Positions 5,546 through 39,093 of a DNA stretch of 64,000 nt are shown here, piece by piece. The stretch covers positions 124,001-188,000 of the forward strand of contig NZ_JAHLYP010000038.1 in NCBI RefSeq assembly GCF_025127995.1, read 5' to 3'. Source of the stretch: Synechococcus sp. CS-1332 (GTDB lineage: Bacteria; Cyanobacteriota; Cyanobacteriia; PCC-6307; Cyanobiaceae). The notes beneath the pieces are model-generated. The model saw nothing but the letters and a program-made list of their open reading frames with translations. It was not told the DNA's origin and made no database searches. The position numbers were made by a program, and so were the translations under genes. Every line of letters begins with the position of its first letter. Within the stretch, counting starts at the first letter, position 1.

Positions 5546-6301
5546 TTAGAGACCCTCCCGGCTGCGGGAGCGAATGCTTTGGGCCTTACCAAGCAGATCC
5601 AGAAAGCCTTCGGCATTGGAGATCTCTTCCACCTCCAGCTGGGCGCGGGCATGGTCGATTTCGATGCTGAGCGTGCGGATCTTTTGCTGAAGCTCATGCT
5701 CCCGTTGTTTAACTCTCTCGAACATCTGTGTGAATGAGGCCCGCGCATTCATGATGGAAGTGTCGCCACCATCAGCGGTCTCGTTGATGTATCTCTGCAC
5801 ATCCCCGTAGCTTCCGGAGGCGATCATCTGAGTCAGATTGCTGAATTCATCAATGTAGGCAAGCATGCTGCGTGATCGCTGAATCAGTGCGCTGAACAAT
5901 GAATCCCGCAACTTCAGATTTCGATCCAACAGACTGATGGCGATCGCATTGGAAAAGCTCAGCAATGAGGCCTCATCGCTCTCAACAGCGCAGGACGCTG
6001 ATCGTGTCTTTTCGCCAAATAGGGTCATCTCTCCGATGATGCTGTCAGCCCCCAGGCTGGCAATGGTGATTTCCTGCCCACTTGCATTCTGGATGAACAC
6101 CCGGATACGGCCTGACTCAAGCAGATACAAGGAGTCAGTGGGATCACCTTCGCGAAACAGCAATTCATTCTTTTTGATCACGACCAATCCCTTGCTATCG
6201 TTCGCGCTGGATCGAAACAAGTCTGCCAATTCCGATGTCAGGGAATTGGTTGAAACGGGAACGGATGCCAGCCTGGACATGGGCGGAATCTGCTGATCCA
6301 T
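5546..6301 (-). CDS. cNMP-binding protein without DNA-binding domain
   Basis: A protein of about 251 residues. Residues about 25-125 form a cyclic-nucleotide-binding beta-roll with a recognisable phosphate-binding cassette (GEMTLFGEKTRSA; Glu91, Arg100 and Ser101 are present), so cAMP or cGMP binding is plausible. Unlike CRP, there is no helix-turn-helix. The C-terminal half is helical with a charged probable coiled coil (about 183-225), suggesting a signalling scaffold or partner-binding protein. In-frame ATGs at 6334 and 6280 are alternatives; none has a strong ribosome-binding site. It converges on the ParA-like/membrane pair, 33 bp away, and shares their AT-rich composition. Confidence 0.85.
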   Translation of the reverse strand: MDQQIPPMSRLASVPVSTNSLTSELADLFRSSANDSKGLVVIKKNELLFREGDPTDSLYLLESGRIRVFIQNASGQEITIASLGADSIIGEMTLFGEKTRSASCAVESDEASLLSFSNAIAISLLDRNLKLRDSLFSALIQRSRSMLAYIDEFSNLTQMIASGSYGDVQRYINETADGGDTSIMNARASFTQMFERVKQREHELQQKIRTLSIEIDHARAQLEVEEISNAEGFLDLLGKAQSIRSRSREGL

Positions 6302-6412
6302 GCCTACACCGTTCTCCAGCGGGTCTGCGGTCATGACGTTATCGGTGGGGGGAGCTGAGTGACATGGCGTTGCTCCGGCCGATCCGCACCATGGCCTGGC
6401 TTGAATCGTACG

Positions 6413-6433
6413 TTGATCCTGGGTGAGGATCAA
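6413..6433. repeat. Perfect inverted repeat upstream of the cNMP gene
   Basis: TTGATCCT (6413-6420), a 5-nt spacer, then AGGATCAA (6426-6433). It lies about 80-130 bp upstream of the possible starts of the cNMP-binding gene. It has the size and symmetry of an operator, though a small hairpin is equally possible. No U-run follows on either strand. Confidence 0.4.
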
Positions 6434-6570: not shown

Positions 6571-7248
6571 TCACTCCAGTCTCCCGTGGATCTCCAGGTA
6601 GCGGTCCTCCACCTCTTGCACCTCCAGCCCATCCAGCCCGGCGGCCTTGAGTTGTCCCATCACGTCGGCCCGGGTGAAGGCCGCCCGCAGTGAATGGGCG
6701 TAGTCCCGCCGCAGCACCTCCGGGGCCGAGGCGGCATGGCGGCACACCAGGGCCTCCAGCTCCGCCAGGGTGGCGGGCCGCCGCAGATCCCTCACATAGA
6801 GCTGGGTGCCTGGCGCAGACAACTGCCGCACGCTCCGCCAGAACACGCCTGGCTCATGCAGATGGTGCAGCAGGCTGTTGCTGACCACAGCACTGCAGGG
6901 TCCCTGCAGCTGGGGGCTCGGCAGAACCAGTTGCCGGAATCGCAGGCGCCGCATGGCGGTGGGATCTCCGTGTTGCCTCCGCTCGGCGATGGCCAGCATC
7001 GCCGCAGAGCCATCGAGGCCCAGCACGCTGGCCCCGGGCCATCGCCCGGCCAGCAGAAAGCTGATGTTGCCGGGACCGCAGCCCAGATCCACAAAGCTCA
7101 TTCCTTCCCCGTCCCCCTCCCCCCGGGGACCCAGGAGAGCTTCGATCCTTTCGAGCACGGCCCTGTCACCACGCGAGAAATCCGCCGCTGCATAGGCCTC
7201 GGCCTGCAGGACGTCCTCCATCAGCTCCGGTTCACAGATCCGCTCCAT
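6571..7248 (-). CDS. Class I SAM-dependent methyltransferase
   Basis: A 225-residue Rossmann-fold methyltransferase. Motif I, FVDLGCGPGN, lies at about residues 51-60, followed by LGLDGSAAML (acidic residue for the SAM ribose) and the conserved stretch SNSLLHHLHEP. The substrate cannot be told; the overall shape resembles small-molecule or tRNA-type methyltransferases of the Methyltransf_11/25 kind. The ATG at 7248 is preceded by GGAG at a good distance; a GTG seven codons upstream is the alternative. It is divergent from nrdJ and has the normal high GC of the window. Confidence 0.82.
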   Translation of the reverse strand: MERICEPELMEDVLQAEAYAAADFSRGDRAVLERIEALLGPRGEGDGEGMSFVDLGCGPGNISFLLAGRWPGASVLGLDGSAAMLAIAERRQHGDPTAMRRLRFRQLVLPSPQLQGPCSAVVSNSLLHHLHEPGVFWRSVRQLSAPGTQLYVRDLRRPATLAELEALVCRHAASAPEVLRRDYAHSLRAAFTRADVMGQLKAAGLDGLEVQEVEDRYLEIHGRLE

Positions 7249-7338
7249 GGCTCCAGCCCCGTTGTCCACCCCGCCGTGTTCTACCCAGCCGGGGGGCCGT
7301 CAGCCGCAGCAGGCACCGTGGCTGGTGGGGGGGTGCCG

Positions 7339-7366
7339 TTGCAGACCCTACGGGTGGCGTTATGGT
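7339..7366 (+). promoter_or_regulatory. Candidate sigma70-type promoter of nrdJ
   Basis: TTGCAG (7339-7344), a 16-bp spacer, then TATGGT (7361-7366) lie in the short divergent gap before nrdJ. Transcription would start near 7373, leaving about 20 nt of leader to the GTG at 7394. I see no cobalamin riboswitch in the remaining space. Inferred from consensus only. Confidence 0.4.
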
Positions 7367-7393
7367 TTCCAGCACGCATCGGCCGTACCCACC

Positions 7394-9751
7394 GTGACCC
7401 TGTCCGCCGCCCGTCCAGCCACGTCCGCCGAGGCGGTGATGTCCTCCGCAGGCGACGGGACCCTCACGCCGGCGGCTGATTTTCCGCTGACCGCCCCAGC
7501 GGCCTATCCAGTCTTCTACCGCACGTACAGCCGCAAGACCCCAAGTGGTGGTAGGGAGAGCTGGCATGAGGTGGCTGAGCGCAACCTCGAAGGGCTGCGG
7601 GTGCTGGGTTCCCTCTCCATGGACGAGGTGGAGCTGATCCGGCGCATGCAGCGCCACCAGATGGCCCTCCCTTCTGGCCGCTGGTTGTGGATCGGGGGCA
7701 CCGAGTGGATCGAGCAAGCCGAGAACTTCTCCGGTGCCTACAACTGCACCTCCACCAACCTGGTGGATTGGGAAGCCTTCGCCTTGATGATGGATCTGGC
7801 GATGATGGGCTGTGGCACCGGCGCCATCATCGAGCCCCATCTGATCAGCCGGCTGCCGAAGGTGCGCAACACCCTCGTCATCGATGCCGTCACAGACATC
7901 GGCGTCACCCCGATCGGATCCCGCCAGCAGCAGACCACCCACCAGATCGAGGGTCAGCAGGTCAGCGTGCGGGTGGGTGACACCCGATCCGGCTGGGTGG
8001 AGAGCTACAGGCTGCTGCTCAACCTCTGCAGCGATGAGCGTTTCGACGGCCCCGTCCACGTGTCGGTGGATCTTTCTGACGTGCGGCCCGTGGGCGAAAC
8101 TCTCAAGGGTTTCGGCGGCATGGCCAACCCCGTGAAGCTGCGGGATCTCTACGGCCGCGTCGCCCAGATCCTCAACAAGGCCAAGGGCCGTCAGCTGACT
8201 TCAGTGGAGTGCTGCCTGCTGATCGATGAGGCGGCGGTGACGATCGTGGCCGGCAACATTCGCCGTAGCGCCGGCATGCGCCAGTTCTGCGCCGACGATA
8301 ATTCCGCCCTCGGTGCCAAGGAGAATCTGTGGCAACAGGATGCCCAGGGCCATTGGCGCATCGATCCCGAGCGCGATGCCCTGCGCATGGCCAATCACAC
8401 GCGGGTGTTCCATGGGCGCCCCAGCCGTGAGGTGGTGTTGGAGGCCGTCAACAAGCAATTCCAGTCGGGTGAGGGAGCCATCCAGTTCGCCCCCGAGGCG
8501 ATTGCCCGCTCCAACGCCGACCTGCTCACCACTCCCCAGCTGCGCACCGAATTCATCGGCATCTACTGCGACCAGGGCAAGGAAGAGGCTGGACGCTGGT
8601 TGCAGCTTCACCATCCGGAGATCGGTGAGGCTGAGCTGGACCATCGTCTCGGCCGCTACGGACTCAATCCCTGCGGTGAGATCCTCGGTGCCGATTTCCA
8701 CTGCAACCTGGCCGAGATCCACCTCAACCGGATCGATCCCCACGATCACCAGGCCCAGGCGGACGCCTTCAAGGCCGGAGGACTGGCGGTGGCCTGCCTC
8801 CTGAACCACCGTTTTGAGGTCGAGCGCTACCGCCAGAGCCGCGCCTGGGATCCGATCGTGGGTGTCAGCTTCACGGGCCTGTTCGATTTCTTCGTGCACG
8901 CCTTCGGCACCCCCTGGCTGCGGTGGTGGGAAGCCGGACGCCCCGACACGGAAGAGGGTCGCTCCTTCCGGGCCGAGGAAGAGGCCTACCTCACGCGCTG
9001 GAAGCAAAGCGTCCATGATGCGGTGTGGGACTACTGCGATCGCCACGGCATGCGTCGTCCCAACCGCTGCACCACAGTTCAACCGGCCGGTACCAAGAGC
9101 CTGCTCACTGGAGCCAGCCCCGGTTGGCATCCCCCCAAGGCCCAGAGGTTCATCCGTCGCATCACCTTCCGCAAGAACGACCCGGTGGCCCTGGCCTGCA
9201 TGGACTATGGCTACGCCATCGTTCCCTCCCAGTCGGACAAGGATGAGCAGGGACGTCTGCTGAATGATCCCTTTGATCCGCGCTGCACCGAGTGGCTCGT
9301 CGAGATCCCCACCGAGGTCAGTTGGGCCAACCTGCCGGGAGCCGATCAGGTGGAGATCAACAACTTCTCCGCCCTGGCCCAGTTCGATTTCTACATGCAG
9401 GTGCAACGCCACTTCACCACCCACAACACCTCAGCGACCGTCGAGTTCCGTGAGCATGAAATCGGTGCCCTAGCCACCGCGATCCATCAAGCTATCGAGA
9501 ATGGTGAGGGATACATCTCAGCCGCTCTTCTTGCCCGGTTTGATGCCAATGCCACCTTCCCCAGATTGCCCTTTGAGCCGATTGATCAGGCCACCTATCA
9601 TCAGATGGTTGGTGAGGTTGAGCAGCGTCGCCAGTGCGGTGACTTCTTCCTTGCTTTGCAGAAGTATGACCGCGGCGAGCTGATCGAAGCCGGTCCCGCT
9701 GGCTGCGACTCTGATAAGTGTCTGCTGCCTCTGGCCAAGCCCGAGAACTGA
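7394..9751 (+). CDS. nrdJ: B12-dependent class II ribonucleotide reductase
   Basis: NrdJ reduces ribonucleotides to deoxyribonucleotides with adenosylcobalamin as radical source and works without oxygen. The 785-residue protein matches the monomeric class II type. Key cysteines are present: Cys118 (in AYNCTS), Cys427 in the radical loop NPCGEI, Cys437 ten residues later, and the C-terminal thiol shuttle Cys771/Cys776 (GCDSDKC). These correspond to the five cysteines of the Lactobacillus leichmannii enzyme. I chose the GTG at 7394, which places Cys118 next to the family position; the ATG at 7439 is an alternative. It is convergent with the sia operon, with a hairpin between them. Confidence 0.95.
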   Translation: MTLSAARPATSAEAVMSSAGDGTLTPAADFPLTAPAAYPVFYRTYSRKTPSGGRESWHEVAERNLEGLRVLGSLSMDEVELIRRMQRHQMALPSGRWLWIGGTEWIEQAENFSGAYNCTSTNLVDWEAFALMMDLAMMGCGTGAIIEPHLISRLPKVRNTLVIDAVTDIGVTPIGSRQQQTTHQIEGQQVSVRVGDTRSGWVESYRLLLNLCSDERFDGPVHVSVDLSDVRPVGETLKGFGGMANPVKLRDLYGRVAQILNKAKGRQLTSVECCLLIDEAAVTIVAGNIRRSAGMRQFCADDNSALGAKENLWQQDAQGHWRIDPERDALRMANHTRVFHGRPSREVVLEAVNKQFQSGEGAIQFAPEAIARSNADLLTTPQLRTEFIGIYCDQGKEEAGRWLQLHHPEIGEAELDHRLGRYGLNPCGEILGADFHCNLAEIHLNRIDPHDHQAQADAFKAGGLAVACLLNHRFEVERYRQSRAWDPIVGVSFTGLFDFFVHAFGTPWLRWWEAGRPDTEEGRSFRAEEEAYLTRWKQSVHDAVWDYCDRHGMRRPNRCTTVQPAGTKSLLTGASPGWHPPKAQRFIRRITFRKNDPVALACMDYGYAIVPSQSDKDEQGRLLNDPFDPRCTEWLVEIPTEVSWANLPGADQVEINNFSALAQFDFYMQVQRHFTTHNTSATVEFREHEIGALATAIHQAIENGEGYISAALLARFDANATFPRLPFEPIDQATYHQMVGEVEQRRQCGDFFLALQKYDRGELIEAGPAGCDSDKCLLPLAKPEN

Positions 9752-9836: not shown

Positions 9837-10694
9837 TTACTCAACACCAGAAACTAGGGCGCTGATCTCCCGATGGGTGAGGGGATCGTCTGGGTCAATC
9901 ACCATCAACCTGTCACGGCCTGCATTTTTGGCCATGAGCAGGGCTTTGTCGGCACGCCGGAACGTGGCATCGTAGTTCTCATCTGGCTTGTGCTCTGTCA
10001 AACCTAGGCTGGCCGTCAGACTCAACTCCATGTCGTCGATGGACACTCGCATGCTGCGAATGTTTGCCAACATTCGCTTGGCCACAATTTCAGCTGTGGA
10101 GAGATCGGCATCAATCAGTAAGGCCATGAATTCTTCCCCACCCCATCGGGCAATGATGTCGTAGTGACGCAGGCTGCTGGAGAGGGCCTTGACGAAATCA
10201 ACCAGCATCATATCGCCGGTAGCATGCCCATAGTCGTCGTTGATCAGTTTGAAGTGATCCACATCAAGAATGATCATCGAATAGGTAGAGCCATGCCTGG
10301 AGGCTCTTTGGTCTTCTTCGAGGCACCGTTCCGCCATAAAGCGGCGGTTTGATATCCCCGTCAGAGAATCATGGGTAGAGGCCTCAAAGAGCGAAAGATT
10401 CGACTCTTTTAATGAGGCCTGATACAAATCGGAGATCCGCACAACTCGCTTGATCTGGCGCAACTGCTTCTCGTAGCGATTCGTCAGACTGCGGTTGCTT
10501 TCGAGCACATGCGATTGGTAAAGATCAGAGATGTCAGCGACTCTCTCCAAACGTTCAACCTGATCTTCAATGCGGTTCCACAAGCGAGCTAGCAGATGAC
10601 GCACCGGGTCATCATCATACCGACTGTCTGCCAGAATCGCCATGACTTCCTGCTCTAACTGATTATCGGATTTGGGGCAGGACGGGTCAGCCAT
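9837..10694 (-). CDS. siaD: Diguanylate cyclase SiaD
   Basis: Makes c-di-GMP from two GTP. The 285-residue protein has a helical N-terminal stalk (1-105) and a GGDEF domain with active-site GGEEF (185-189). An inhibitory I-site RHYD (176-179) lies exactly five residues upstream, so product inhibition is likely. No membrane span is present. The stalk holds a duplicated motif, ISDLYQ at 55-60 and again at 87-92. In Pseudomonas aeruginosa the SiaD stalk is bound and activated by unphosphorylated SiaC; the same gene order here supports that role. The ATG follows the siaC stop by one base, so the genes are cotranscribed. AT-rich compared with nrdJ. Confidence 0.9.
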   Translation of the reverse strand: MADPSCPKSDNQLEQEVMAILADSRYDDDPVRHLLARLWNRIEDQVERLERVADISDLYQSHVLESNRSLTNRYEKQLRQIKRVVRISDLYQASLKESNLSLFEASTHDSLTGISNRRFMAERCLEEDQRASRHGSTYSMIILDVDHFKLINDDYGHATGDMMLVDFVKALSSSLRHYDIIARWGGEEFMALLIDADLSTAEIVAKRMLANIRSMRVSIDDMELSLTASLGLTEHKPDENYDATFRRADKALLMAKNAGRDRLMVIDPDDPLTHREISALVSGVE

Positions 10695-10695
10695 G

Positions 10696-11091
10696 TTAGG
10701 CGTTGATCGAGAGGATCAAGAATGGGAAAGTGTAATCTTCCTTGAACTCCGCGCCGAGTTCGGCTGAACGAGGATTCCTATCATCGAACATCCACTGCAC
10801 CAACACTTCCTTGCCACTCTCAAAGGCAGACTGCAACAAGTCGAAAATATCTATCATGAAACGAATGCTGCTCGTATTGAGGTAGTTCAAATGCAACTCC
10901 AGTGTCAGGGAATGTTCGGCACTGTTGAGGTAGCTGTCAATCCATTGAATCAGCTGGTCGTAGAGTTCGAACGAATTCTCCGGATAGGACTCGCCACTCA
11001 TAACCACAACACCCGCCTTCCAATCCGCCCGGATCGAGGGACTTGATTGGGAGCCGGGTACGGAGAGATTGAGTTCTTCGCTGCTACTCAT
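10696..11091 (-). CDS. siaC: SiaC-type regulatory phosphoprotein (DUF1987)
   Basis: A 131-residue protein of the DUF1987/SiaC family. In Pseudomonas SiaC is phosphorylated on a threonine by SiaB and dephosphorylated by SiaA; the unphosphorylated form activates the cyclase SiaD. The conserved segment LNYLNTSSIR is present, with Thr73 in NTSS as the probable phosphosite. The fold should be a STAS-like alpha/beta domain. The ATG at 11091 lies four bases after the siaB stop; the open frame upstream overlaps siaB in another frame and is not coding. Identification rests on the motif, the length and the neighbouring siaA, siaB and siaD. Confidence 0.9.
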   Translation of the reverse strand: MSSSEELNLSVPGSQSSPSIRADWKAGVVVMSGESYPENSFELYDQLIQWIDSYLNSAEHSLTLELHLNYLNTSSIRFMIDIFDLLQSAFESGKEVLVQWMFDDRNPRSAELGAEFKEDYTFPFLILSINA

Positions 11092-11095
11092 GGGA

Positions 11096-11644
11096 TCAGA
11101 TGATGGCCCGAAGGCTAAAGAAGGCACGACCGTGCTCAAGGGGATCAAGGGAGGCCTCCATGGGTTGGCTTGAGCGTCTGGCGATCTCGATGAGACCCAG
11201 ACCTGCTCCCTGCCCGGGGGTCTGGGCGTGGGGCTGGCGCAACTGCTTTTTGTAGAGCTGCTTGAGCTGGGCCTTGTCACAGTCCGCGAGGTCGTGGATC
11301 CGTTCCAGTAGGGCCTGACCGTCCCCCATTTCTACGAGGTTACCTGCACACACAGCGTAATGGCCAGCCTCAGCTGCCGCTATGACGACGGTGGCTGAGG
11401 ATTCGGAATCGCTCAAGCCATGACTTGTTGCATAATTCTTGATATTCTGACTCATTTCGATATAGACACTGAACACATCCATGACCTCCAGTTCGGGAGC
11501 GTGATTGGATTCAATGTGTTCTTTCAAAGCTGATCCTATCTCCCCGATCACGGTGGTGGAGATCGGCCCGTTGAAGCAAATGAGGATCTGATGATTGCTG
11601 AAAAACTCTCTCAGCGAGATCAGGCTGGTGGTGCTGATGGTCAT
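11096..11644 (-). CDS. siaB: SiaB-type protein kinase (DUF6272)
   Basis: A 182-residue protein with a GHKL/histidine-kinase-like ATPase fold: an N-box-like EMSQNIKNYA (63-72) and the glycine-rich lid motif GQGAGLGL (144-151). SiaB of Pseudomonas is a threonine kinase of SiaC, not a histidine kinase. Switch-type anti-sigma kinases use the same fold. The ATG at 11644 gives MTISTTSLISLREFF, which matches where family members begin, and leaves 88 nt after siaA. The upstream open frame overlapping siaA is discounted. It lies in the operon siaA-siaB-siaC-siaD on the minus strand. Confidence 0.88.
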   Translation of the reverse strand: MTISTTSLISLREFFSNHQILICFNGPISTTVIGEIGSALKEHIESNHAPELEVMDVFSVYIEMSQNIKNYATSHGLSDSESSATVVIAAAEAGHYAVCAGNLVEMGDGQALLERIHDLADCDKAQLKQLYKKQLRQPHAQTPGQGAGLGLIEIARRSSQPMEASLDPLEHGRAFFSLRAII

Positions 11645-11732
11645 CGCATCGTGTCCGAAGCGCACATTGGACTTGTCTTGATCAGAGGAGAGCTGGGGCT
11701 GCTGTTGTTCAGCGGGGACATCAAGGAACTCC

Positions 11733-12938
11733 CTAGGAGAAGCGGAAGGATAAGATCGTGATGTCGTCCCGCTGCGGGTACCGTCCGCGGAACTGTTCCA
11801 GGGCATCGGCGAGGGCTTGACGCTGCTGCTCCAAGGGCTGCCGGGCCAACTGGATCAGCCATTGCTTGAATTTCTGGGTACCCAGCGAGAAACCGTCTTC
11901 GCCGCCCGATTGATCCAGCAATCCATCGGTGGTCAGGTAGTACGTACAGTCAGGCTGCAACGGTACGTCGTGGTCCGTGTAGGCACCAACGCGCTGATCA
12001 CAGATCGCCCGGTGGTCTCCCCTGAGCATGTGCATGGTGTGCCCATCACTCCAATAGAGACTGATCTTTGCACCAGAGAATCTAAGCGTTCTGGCTTCAA
12101 AGTCAAGGCGCACAAGCCCAATGTCCATGCTGGTCGCGATGGACTTGCTCATCCTGGCCCCATGCAGCAGCGTTCGCATGGCGGTATCGGTGCAGCTCAG
12201 AATGGCGGCAGGGGAGGTGATGCCCACCTCCATGATGGAGCGATCAATCCCTGCCCTCGCCAGCATGGTCATCATCGCCCCTGACACCCCATGCCCGGCG
12301 CAGTCGGCCACGCCTGCAAGGCAATGACCACCTTCGGAGTGGAAGATGTAGTAGTCACCTCCAACTGTGTCTCGGGGCAGCCAGAGGATGAAGTAATTGT
12401 TTCCAAACGTTTCCTGGAGCTGGCGATCCGGCAGGATTGATCGCTGCAGCAGGCCGGCGTAGTTGATGGAGGCCTCGATCTGCCGATTGGCTTCCGACAA
12501 TTGCTGATTGCTGGCTTCCCCAGCAACCAGTGCCTGCCGCATCTTGACGAGCACGACGTTGAAGGCCTGAGCCAGTTTCGAGATTTCGTCGTTGCTTCGG
12601 ATCGTCAGCAGGCTGGTCATGTCATCACTCTCGATCTCACTGGCTTCGCGGACAAGGCGAGCGATCGGAAGGATGATTCGCCTGGTGATGATCTGGTACG
12701 AAATGATCGCCAGGATGACCAGCAGCAGCGTGAGAATCAATGAGACATAGATCTCGGCAGAATGGACGCCGGGAACCATCAGCAGCTGGACGGCCGCGAT
12801 AACCAGGTACAGAAGAACGAGCCCATTGACAATCGCGATGAGCGTGAAGACCTGCTGGATGGAGGCCACCGTGCGTCTGGATGAGGAGGGATGACTCATC
12901 CCCTTGTTGTTGGTCTCACCGTTGGAATTAGGCTCCAT
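11733..12938 (-). CDS. siaA: SiaA-type membrane PP2C phosphatase with HAMP
   Basis: Dephosphorylates SiaC to switch on c-di-GMP synthesis. The protein of about 401 residues has two membrane helices (about 28-52 and 62-84), a HAMP linker (85-138), a short helical stretch and a PPM/SpoIIE phosphatase domain (about 175-400). Metal-binding and core motifs are visible: DTVGGDYY, ADCAGHGVSGAMMTML, TDGLLDQ and RDDIT. The Pseudomonas protein (about 660 residues) has a large periplasmic sensor; here the loop between the helices is only about ten residues, so the input signal must differ. ATGs at 12968, 12938 and 12899 are all possible starts. First gene of the operon, divergent from cax. Confidence 0.88.
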   Translation of the reverse strand: MEPNSNGETNNKGMSHPSSSRRTVASIQQVFTLIAIVNGLVLLYLVIAAVQLLMVPGVHSAEIYVSLILTLLLVILAIISYQIITRRIILPIARLVREASEIESDDMTSLLTIRSNDEISKLAQAFNVVLVKMRQALVAGEASNQQLSEANRQIEASINYAGLLQRSILPDRQLQETFGNNYFILWLPRDTVGGDYYIFHSEGGHCLAGVADCAGHGVSGAMMTMLARAGIDRSIMEVGITSPAAILSCTDTAMRTLLHGARMSKSIATSMDIGLVRLDFEARTLRFSGAKISLYWSDGHTMHMLRGDHRAICDQRVGAYTDHDVPLQPDCTYYLTTDGLLDQSGGEDGFSLGTQKFKQWLIQLARQPLEQQRQALADALEQFRGRYPQRDDITILSFRFS

Positions 12939-13193
12939 GGCGTCAGGCCCCAGGGCTGGGATTTTCATCGCCGGAGGCTTCTTTGAGCCCAAGGCGGCCT
13001 GCAGGGTGTCGGGCAATCAGGAGAATGCTGCTCAAGACATTCTGGGCAGAAAGTCCCTGATGCGCAGTCAACAGCACGACGGTGCATGGCGTAAGGCCTG
13101 ACCAATCTCGTCGAGATCGCGTTGATGGCTGGCTGGGCCATGGACTCACTGGTCACCTGTCGGTCACAATGGGGCTGATCAATCCTCCGCTCC

Positions 13194-14309
13194 ATGCCTG
13201 CTCGCCTGCGCATCGCCATCGGCCTGCTGGCGATGCTGCCGGTCGCCGCTGCCGCTGACCGGTTCCATTGGGGGGATGGATTCGTCTTCATTGCCTCCAT
13301 CCTGTCGATCATTCCACTGGCGATCCTGCTGAGCACCGCCACCGAGGAGCTGTCCCTCACTCTCGGCCCCTCCATCGGGGCCCTGCTCAATGCCCTCTTC
13401 GGCAACGCCACCGAACTGATCATTGCCCTGGCGGCCCTGCGGGCCGGCCTGGTGGACATCGTCAAGGCCAGCATCACGGGCACGGTCATGGCCAACCTGT
13501 TGCTGGCCCTTGGCCTCTCGATGCTGGTGGGGGGCATCGGCCGCAGTGAGCAGCGTTTCCAGCCGGTGGTGGCCCGGGTCAACGGTTCGGCCATGACCCT
13601 GGCCGTGCTCGCGATCCTGATCCCGAGCCTGCGGGGGATGGTGGGCGGCGATGCGGGCGGGTTGGACGCGGGCGCCGCGGAGTCCTTCTCCCTGTTCGTG
13701 GCCTGGGTGTTGCTGGCCGTCTACGGCCTGACCCTGCTGTTTTCCCTGGGGACCCACCGCACCCTCTATGCCGTGGCAGAAGCGGACCTGCTCGTGGAGG
13801 GAGAGGATCCGGGCCACGACGGTGAAAGCGGCCATCGGCCGCCGTTGCTGCCCTGGGTGGCTGTGCTGCTGGCAGCCACCGTGGGCCTGGCCTATGCCTC
13901 CGAGCTGTTCGTGGGCGTCGTGGAGACCGTCACCGAGTCCCTGGGCCTCTCCGCGCTGTTCACTGGTGTGGTGCTGCTCCCCCTGCTGGGCGGCGCTGCC
14001 GAATACCTCACCGCGGTGAGCATGGCGCGCAAGGACAAGATGGATCTCGCGGTCTCGGTGGCCATGGGCTCCACCCTGCTGGTGGGGCTGCTGGTGGTGC
14101 CGGTACTGCTGCTGGTGGCCCCCCTGCTCGGCCACCCCCTCGATCTCAGCTTCAACGTCTACGAGGTCGTGGCGGTGGCCACGGCCGTGCTGGTGAGCAA
14201 TCTGGTCAGCCTCGACGGCCGCTCCGACTGGCTCGAAGGTGTGCTCCTGCTGGCGGCCTACGCCATCCTCGCGGCCGGGTTCTTCTTCCAGAGCAGCTCC
14301 CTGTCATGA
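13194..14309 (+). CDS. cax: Ca2+/H+ antiporter (CaCA family)
   Basis: Inner-membrane exchanger exporting calcium in return for protons. The 371-residue protein has about eleven hydrophobic segments in two homologous halves, each with a characteristic alpha-repeat: GNATEL (70-75) and GGAAE (266-270); these hold the acidic cation ligands. A short acidic loop (about 200-220, EGEDPGHDGE) separates the halves, as in other Cax proteins. The ATG at 13194 opens directly into the first segment. The stop overlaps the start of the next gene (ATGA), implying coupled translation. Length and motifs are typical; the ion is inferred from the family. Confidence 0.92.
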   Translation: MPARLRIAIGLLAMLPVAAAADRFHWGDGFVFIASILSIIPLAILLSTATEELSLTLGPSIGALLNALFGNATELIIALAALRAGLVDIVKASITGTVMANLLLALGLSMLVGGIGRSEQRFQPVVARVNGSAMTLAVLAILIPSLRGMVGGDAGGLDAGAAESFSLFVAWVLLAVYGLTLLFSLGTHRTLYAVAEADLLVEGEDPGHDGESGHRPPLLPWVAVLLAATVGLAYASELFVGVVETVTESLGLSALFTGVVLLPLLGGAAEYLTAVSMARKDKMDLAVSVAMGSTLLVGLLVVPVLLLVAPLLGHPLDLSFNVYEVVAVATAVLVSNLVSLDGRSDWLEGVLLLAAYAILAAGFFFQSSSLS

Positions 14310-15484: not shown

Positions 15485-15502
15485 GGTCGGGCCGTCCAGC
15501 CT

Positions 15503-15587
15503 GGAGGGGTGGTCGAGTGGTTGATGGCTCCGGTCTTGAAAACCGGCGAATCGCAAGATTCCGTGGGTTCGAATCCCACCCCCTCCG
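15503..15587 (+). tRNA. trnS: tRNA-Ser (anticodon UGA)
   Basis: An 85-nt class II tRNA. Acceptor arm GGAGGGG (15503-15509) pairs with CCCCTCC (15580-15586), with discriminator G. The anticodon stem CCGGT/ACCGG encloses loop CTTGAAA, giving anticodon TGA. A long variable arm follows, and the T-loop GGTTCGAATCC is intact. CCA is not encoded. It is read with the codon group UCN, mainly UCA. Confidence 0.97.
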
Positions 15588-15631
15588 TCTTTCTCTCCAC
15601 CACCGGCACTGGCCCCAGCGCCTTAAGCGCC

Positions 15632-38876: not shown

Positions 38877-38885
38877 GATGCAGTT

Positions 38886-39061
38886 GGACTGCTGTGTTGG
38901 TGACTGCCTTTCACAGTTTTCTGATCTGACTCCCTTTCGACGCGGGGGGTCTTCAGCGACGGCAACGTATACCGGCTTCACGGCCGGAAACGAAGCCCCG
39001 CCCCTGACTCCCCACCTGGTTCATCCAGGTCGAACACTGGGGCAAGACGGCACGGCGGTCC
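38886..39061 (+). ncRNA. ssaA: 6S RNA
   Basis: A 176-nt structured region just after purK. The ends pair over eleven positions: GGACTGCTGTG (38886-38896) with CACGGCGGTCC (39051-39061), with two G-U pairs. Further in, the 3' side holds a small hairpin CCTGG-TTCAT-CCAGG opposite an unpaired 5' stretch, giving the open central bubble of 6S RNA, and the apical part ends in CCGGC...GCCGG with a G-run/C-run stem below it. 6S RNA mimics an open promoter and sequesters RNA polymerase. Size, shape and location next to purK all fit. The ends are approximate. Confidence 0.75.
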
Positions 39062-39093
39062 ACCCCCTTTCCGTAGCGATCAGCGGGTTTCGA

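Follow-up and report, generated by a model that had tools for sequence, protein, structure and literature searches.

A sensor-less SiaABCD-type module in Synechococcus sp. CS-1332 and its relatives, probably a partner switch acting on a diguanylate cyclase

Does a small cyanobacterium carry a complete version of the SiaABCD partner switch, which controls a diguanylate cyclase in Pseudomonas aeruginosa, and if so, what feeds a signal into it? The question is raised by a siaABCD gene set in a 64,000-nucleotide stretch of the Synechococcus sp. CS-1332 genome (contig NZ_JAHLYP010000038.1, positions 124,001 to 188,000; hereafter the window). The original prediction, made from the letters of this DNA, described a full set ordered A-B-C-D on one strand, with the periplasmic sensor of the phosphatase SiaA missing, and proposed that it controls cyclic dimeric guanosine monophosphate (c-di-GMP) through an input that must differ. 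Our analysis leads us to regard the set as probably a working SiaABCD-type partner switch with an altered input, controlling the activity of one diguanylate cyclase. Coordinates are collected in Table 1.

We assigned the four proteins using profile searches and comparison with solved P. aeruginosa structures. SiaB, SiaC and SiaD exceed the cut-offs of their NCBIfam models (kinase_SiaB, NF038264, 246.9 bits against 225; phos_prot_SiaC, NF038265, 186.5 against 150; diguan_SiaD, NF038266, 303.7 against 290), and on these scores NCBI annotation would already give a name to each of the three. Pfam recognizes HAMP and SpoIIE (75 bits) in SiaA, DUF6272 (130 bits) in SiaB, PF09345 (124 bits) in SiaC and GGDEF (140 bits) in SiaD; as predicted, the 131-residue protein falls in DUF1987 (PF09345) and the 182-residue protein in the SiaB family. 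With phmmer, the PP2C chain of P. aeruginosa SiaA (6k4e) matches the window SiaA at 297 bits, 6kko_A matches SiaB at 193 bits, the SiaC chains 6k4f and 6kko are found with SiaC, and 7e6g_A matches SiaD at 239 bits over residues 11-264, such that solved chains cover most of the cytoplasmic parts of the window proteins. By sequence similarity, with matches far beyond chance, the set is identified as the SiaA-SiaB-SiaC-SiaD orthologues. The open reading frames lie 88 nt (A-B), 4 nt (B-C) and 1 nt (C-D) apart, in line with the predicted 1-4 bp spacing of the last three. Between 9700 and 13300, promoters (2 vs 1.5 +/- 1.1 in shuffles) and terminators (3 vs 2.2 +/- 1.5) support no claim about transcription.

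Residues named in PMC8457831 and PMC7647112 were mapped onto the window proteins and counted over 30 cyanobacterial and 39 other rows, leaving out one family locus whose siaA is cut by a contig end (L065) and one broken locus (L072); published SiaD R125 and D254 fell one residue off the matching letter and were not used. The predicted NTSS phosphosite of SiaC (72-75) is in place, and N72, T73 and S74 are present in 30/30 cyanobacterial and 39/39 other rows. SiaC also keeps Q15, Y36, Y70, I76, D84, R108, L112, E115 and D119 (Q10, Y31, Y65, I71, D79, R103, L107, E110 and D114 in P. aeruginosa, Pa). Kept in SiaA are D205, D222, C223, G225, D282, D348, G349, D352 and D401 (Pa D457, D474, C475, G477, D534, D600, G601, D604 and D653). 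Among these, D222, G225, D348, G349 and D401 are metal-site residues, D205 sits just before the Pfam match, and the catalytic counterparts of Pa D457, D474, G477, D600, G601 and D653 occur in all 30 cyanobacterial rows. The window SiaB retains E63 (Pa E61) and N67. SiaD bears GGEEF at residues 185-189 with the metal and GTP residues D144, D161 and K256, the residues of a diguanylate cyclase, and the predicted intact I-site, RHYD (176-179). It keeps D144, D161, R176/D179, R207 and K256 (Pa D138, D155, R170/D173, R201 and K250) as well as Pa E181, and also S56/Q60, V84, R86, I87 and S88/D89/Y91/Q92 (Pa S50/Q54, V78, R80, I81 and S82/D83/Y85/Q86). Across seven chosen pairs of loci, the ratio of nonsynonymous to synonymous substitution rates (dN/dS) of the four genes was 0.02-0.15 (3 of 28 values were not computable); all four are under purifying selection.

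These orthologies and kept residues support the prediction that a diguanylate cyclase is likely under the control of a partner switch, and the mechanism can be proposed from the P. aeruginosa system (PMC7278518, PMC8457831 and PMC7647112). SiaB would phosphorylate SiaC at Thr73 and so keep it off SiaD, and the SiaA phosphatase would take the phosphate off. Free SiaC would then bind two motifs on the SiaD stalk, giving an active SiaD dimer and a rise in c-di-GMP, with the I-site limiting product. More tentatively, a signal may reach the phosphatase via a two-helix membrane hairpin and HAMP, as membrane state or through a membrane partner. Because the output may include the PilZ-bearing cellulose-synthase-like enzymes of the genome, aggregation or exopolysaccharide would be the trait under control. 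Direct observation covers the four genes, their residues and order, purifying selection, and the conserved transmembrane (TM) hairpin joined to HAMP; the module is real and complete and is probably a working SiaABCD-type switch, the cellular role of which we infer.

Several points weigh against this interpretation. SiaA reaches 416.4 bits against the 700-bit equivalog cut-off of prot_phos_SiaA (NF038263); it falls short because the sensor is absent, as predicted, and only positions 261-657 of the model's 658, the HAMP-PP2C half, are matched. SiaB E63 stands in 29/30 cyanobacterial rows and is K in the remaining one. SiaC contacts Pa D29 and M75 are E34 and I80 in all 30 cyanobacterial rows; in the window SiaD, contacts Pa R74, R84 and M88 are Q80, L90 and S94, and Pa K77, R90 and D91 are conservatively changed to R83, K96 and E97. 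The 18 GGDEF matches in the genome leave SiaD's own share uncertain. Finally, the sia module is dispensable, because it is missing, by SiaC, from 23/42 genomes of the genus (a genome with a remnant, G001, counted as without) and broken in G231 and G001.

One pair of these substitutions forms a pattern of its own. The published account gives SiaD R90 among the residues opposite SiaC D29 in the SiaC-SiaD contact. The R90 counterpart is K96 in 24/30 cyanobacterial rows, so that SiaC residue 34 and SiaD residue 96 show a paired conservative swap (D to E, R to K) across the contact in most of the cyanobacterial clade. Both sides have changed, possibly in one event.

What replaces the missing input? 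The sensor is absent from all 30 readable cyanobacterial SiaA proteins, and in its place is a two-helix hairpin, a new element of cyanobacterial SiaA that sharpens the earlier statement that the input must differ. A hydropathy scan placed the helices 13-24 residues apart in 29/30 of these proteins and resolved one helix in the other (L045). In the window SiaA they are 13 residues apart by hydropathy and 6 in an AlphaFold2 model built from a 15-row alignment (mean pLDDT 73, pTM 0.57), which has helices at 37-64, 71-114 and 128-177, followed by PP2C fold elements. For comparison we surveyed non-cyanobacterial SiaA among the best 80 of at least 552 confirmed loci, ranked by SiaC similarity, with Azospirillum the only addition. 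The frame measures at least 612 aa in 60/62 loci, and the helices are 280-298 residues apart in 57/62, about 195 apart in two Caballeronia proteins, and resolved as one helix in L094. In L140 and L146 the sensor part sits in another frame, indicating a broken or mis-read siaA; in Azospirillum, SiaA is 564 residues long, with about 128 residues between its helices.

The hairpin is conserved in an uneven manner. Across the 30 cyanobacterial proteins, six positions of TM1 (36-58) are invariant (I37, Q38, F41, N48, L52 and L55) and S36 is present in 28/30; TM2 has two invariant positions (L83 and S90) and the loop none. dN/dS over the hairpin (residues 35-95) is 0.08-0.13 in 6/7 pairs and 0.29 in the seventh, compared with 0.03-0.10 over PP2C (residues 190-411) and 0.34-0.88 over the N-tail (residues 1-34, six pairs computable). 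Selection on the hairpin is thus clear, if looser than on the enzyme part. Although several relatives also have an ATG at the place of the one at 12968, the near absence of constraint on the first 34 residues leaves the start codon of SiaA uncertain.

A specific version of the partner-switch explanation holds that the SiaA hairpin itself reads membrane state (temperature, light-driven lipid change or surfactant) with no extracellular ligand, like DesK-type thermosensors. The conserved polar residues of TM1 (Q38, N48 and S36), the clustering of invariant positions there and the contrast with the nearly free N-tail all point this way, but the polar residues may have no role beyond dimer packing, constraint on the hairpin is weaker than on PP2C in 7/7 pairs, and the cyanobacterial TM1 motif does not occur in TM1 of 12 proteobacterial N-termini with unbroken frame. 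The literature cuts both ways. In PMC12834913, P. aeruginosa SiaA is described as responding to membrane perturbation and a DesK-like polar motif is noted in its TM1, which is a lead for intramembrane sensing; the same text credits the response to the sensory domain, the part missing here, which is evidence against it. We treat this reading as a tentative possibility. Its fullest form, in which Cyanobiaceae SiaA is a minimal intramembrane sensor whose hairpin (Q38, N48) reads the membrane directly and controls c-di-GMP by way of a Ser/Thr partner switch, with membrane state (temperature or light-driven lipid change) setting aggregation, strikes us as rather unlikely. If true, it would be a natural sensor deletion of a known switch and, as far as we found, the first such switch reported in cyanobacteria.

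The retention of HAMP and the coiled coil suggests an upstream conformational input, which could instead come from a separate membrane or periplasmic partner docking on the hairpin or HAMP, the sensor having moved to another gene. Within the window no sensor gene adjoins siaA, whose upstream neighbor is a divergent ion exchanger; the upstream genes of other loci were grouped by similarity only, and a sensor may lie among them or at another place in the genome. A hairpin-HAMP search of the same genome returned one weak second match (21% identity over the TM2-HAMP part), and we consider a relocated sensor doubtful. Absence of the sensor would also suit a SiaA that is a constitutive phosphatase with no input of its own, the switch being set by operon expression or by the kinase SiaB (for example through ATP/ADP). 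Partner switches can indeed be set by nucleotide ratio or expression. Yet the TM hairpin, HAMP and coiled coil are kept here, the first two under purifying selection, and would be of little use to an enzyme that is always on; we find this explanation improbable.

How widespread is the module, and where does it sit? PF09345 occurs once in the window's own genome. SiaC was found in 19/42 genomes of the genus and in 32/400 of the family, spread over 6/59 genera, such that the module is not a singleton. In a phylum sample of 386 genomes, strong SiaC matches appeared in five, all of the window's genus, and two others were weak (at most 24.5 bits). In all 32 family loci (the window and 31 relatives), siaA, siaB, siaC and siaD follow one another on a single strand. 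At 28/32 loci siaD lies tail-to-tail with a gene for a B12-dependent ribonucleotide reductase, and the ion exchanger adjoins siaA in 16/32. We inspected reductase flanks in 30 of 44 places, including those of 13 genomes of the genus that lack an intact sia module. In four sia-less genomes (G030, G007, G029 and G034), two of which were viewed over a longer stretch, the reductase and exchanger are direct neighbors, leaving an empty site; in eight, neither sia nor exchanger lies within the reductase flank at hand (up to 1.5 kb). In G001, a frameshifted siaD stands alone beside the reductase (L204: 7543-8237) and siaABC was not found in 19 kb (L203, L204); this remnant is a loss in progress. Close relatives thus lack the module at the same site. 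Separately, the L072 locus of genome G231 has a frameshifted siaA and a stop in siaC, representing either a decaying copy or an assembly error.

To follow the module's history, we compared a concatenated sia tree (30 cyanobacterial and 39 other rows) with a tree of the neighboring reductase (41 rows: 28 with sia, 12 without and one remnant). Both were built by a quick method with support only from the SH-like approximate likelihood ratio test (SH-aLRT); the sia tree was drawn with Azospirillum as outgroup and left out L065, L072, L140, L146, L147 and near-duplicates (k-mer filter). A branch with SH-aLRT 100 separates the cyanobacteria from the other rows. In the reductase tree, G001 is nested among sia-bearing genomes, and at least five changes of sia status are needed. 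On the sequences compared, the cyanobacterial sia modules are one clade, and relatives have lost the module. Within the window's clade, G017/G014, G016/G012 and G004/G015 pair up in both trees; the trees disagree on deeper branches, for example in the place of L071/L074, and in the sia tree G008, G022, G026 and G027 stand apart from the other genus members. Given these differences, transfer inside the family may have occurred. The history was probably one old acquisition, probably from proteobacteria, followed by mostly vertical descent and losses, a direction of transfer that we infer from the distribution. Two candidate carriers were rejected: no viral contig with a relative was found, and plasmid matches were distant (19 records, best 41% identity).

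The G+C content of the sia block is below that of its flanks in 30/30 loci (L065 and L072 left out), and this, together with the siaD remnant in G001 and the broken copy in G231, could indicate a functionless module that is in decay or was recently imported. Intact active sites, the site shared by 28/32 loci and the single clade speak against this, and the low dN/dS values largely contradict it; we consider it very improbable.

The partner switch would operate within a sizeable c-di-GMP network. Besides its GGDEF matches, the genome has 9 EAL matches at 8 places and 6 PilZ matches. Two GT2-PilZ cellulose-synthase-like proteins (L156 and L157; C21:29936-30226 and C35:15219-15509) are encoded elsewhere in it and are likely c-di-GMP targets. 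Within the genus, sia-bearing genomes have 12-31 GGDEF matches (median 17, n=19) vs 1-28 in those without (median 5, n=23; Mann-Whitney p about 1e-5, and 0.002 for genomes at least 95% complete, 16 vs 13), and at least two PilZ matches occur in 19/19 sia-bearing genomes vs any PilZ in 13/23 others; these comparisons ignore kinship and count G001 as without. G018 and G019 lack sia despite 28 and 27 GGDEF matches. The module had been thought notable on the ground that small cyanobacteria have few c-di-GMP genes. Because of these GGDEF, EAL and PilZ counts, that surprise does not apply to the genus, and the expectation of c-di-GMP-poor small cyanobacteria is corrected for its sia-bearing members. 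The counts fit a statement in PMC4284465 that, among the genomes examined there, c-di-GMP domains are absent only from Prochlorococcus, some Synechococcus and UCYN-A.

Table 1. Coordinates of the sia module, its functional sites and other features of the window
Feature	Position	Strand	Basis or remark
siaABCD set	9837-12968	minus	order A-B-C-D
siaD, SiaD-type diguanylate cyclase, 285 aa, N-terminal SiaC-binding stalk and GGEEF	9837-10694	minus	diguan_SiaD, 7e6g_A
SiaD I-site RHYD, R176-D179	10158-10169	minus	R and D in 30/30 cyanobacterial rows
SiaD second SiaC-binding motif S88...Q92	10419-10433	minus	maps to Pa S82/Q86 (PMC8457831)
SiaD first SiaC-binding motif S56...Q60	10515-10529	minus	maps to Pa S50/Q54 (PMC8457831)
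siaC, DUF1987/SiaC phosphoprotein, 131 aa	10696-11091	minus	PF09345, phos_prot_SiaC, 6k4f and 6kko
SiaC codons N72-T73-S74-S75 (NTSS)	10867-10878	minus	T73 is the counterpart of P. aeruginosa phospho-Thr68
siaB, SiaB-type protein kinase, 182 aa	11096-11644	minus	kinase_SiaB, DUF6272, 6kko_A
siaA, sensor-less SiaA-type phosphatase, 411 aa, TM hairpin-HAMP-coiled coil-PP2C	11733-12968	minus	Pfam, NCBIfam, phmmer
SiaA PP2C/SpoIIE domain, Pfam residues 213-410	11739-12332	minus	SpoIIE, 75 bits
SiaA HAMP domain, residues 94-140	12549-12689	minus	PF00672, 39.5 bits
SiaA residues 35-95, two-helix membrane hairpin with short loop replacing the ~290-residue sensor	12684-12866	minus	hydropathy, conservation, model, dN/dS
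B12-dependent ribonucleotide reductase	7247-9751	plus	Pfam RNR-II insertion domain; tail-to-tail with siaD; site marker, not part of the switch
Sodium/calcium exchanger-type transporter	13194-14309	plus	PF01699; divergent from siaA; other edge of the site
Cyclic-nucleotide-binding-domain protein	5546-6433	minus	low G+C; near the sia site in 3/32 loci (fetched stretches)
tRNA-Ser (TGA)	15502-15589	plus	overlapping long ORFs probably spurious
6S RNA	38883-39065	plus	Rfam RF00013, 86 bits

No paper describing cyanobacterial sia genes came up in our searches of the open-licence literature, and the module extends partner-switch control of c-di-GMP, worked out in P. aeruginosa, to a defined clade of small cyanobacteria. 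In P. aeruginosa, the sia genes other than siaB are presumably numbered within PA0172-PA0169. SiaB itself is PA0171 (PMC7647112). The two systems share four orthologues in the same order, the Thr phosphosite, kinase and phosphatase residues, two SiaC-binding motifs on SiaD, GGEEF and the I-site. They differ in that the window SiaA has no sensor between its two TM helices and a different TM1 sequence, and in the lineage-wide contact changes described above (SiaC D29 to E34 and M75 to I80; SiaD R90 to K96). This natural absence of the sensor separates the role of the periplasmic domain from that of the membrane helices, which are confounded in Pseudomonas. Halomonadaceae, Stutzerimonas, Telmatospirillum and others resemble the window in carrying all four sia genes (62/62 non-cyanobacterial loci), but their SiaA has the sensor. 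A variant module occurs on plasmid AZO_p3 of Azospirillum lipoferum 4B (L170), where the order is A-B-C, HAMP histidine kinase, diguanylate cyclase. In HsbA-HsbD of P. aeruginosa and BgrSTUWV-BgrR of Sinorhizobium, a small protein under partner-switch control likewise sets diguanylate cyclase activity (PMC8457831); their partners are STAS-domain proteins, whereas here the partner is a DUF1987/SiaC protein. On the output side, SesABC-Tll0007 of Thermosynechococcus offers a likeness within cyanobacteria, where c-di-GMP brings about aggregation through a cellulose synthase that bears PilZ (PMC12430437). Its input arrives through blue-light and accessory photoreceptors, unlike the Ser/Thr partner switch proposed here, and a link between that output and sia would be by analogy.

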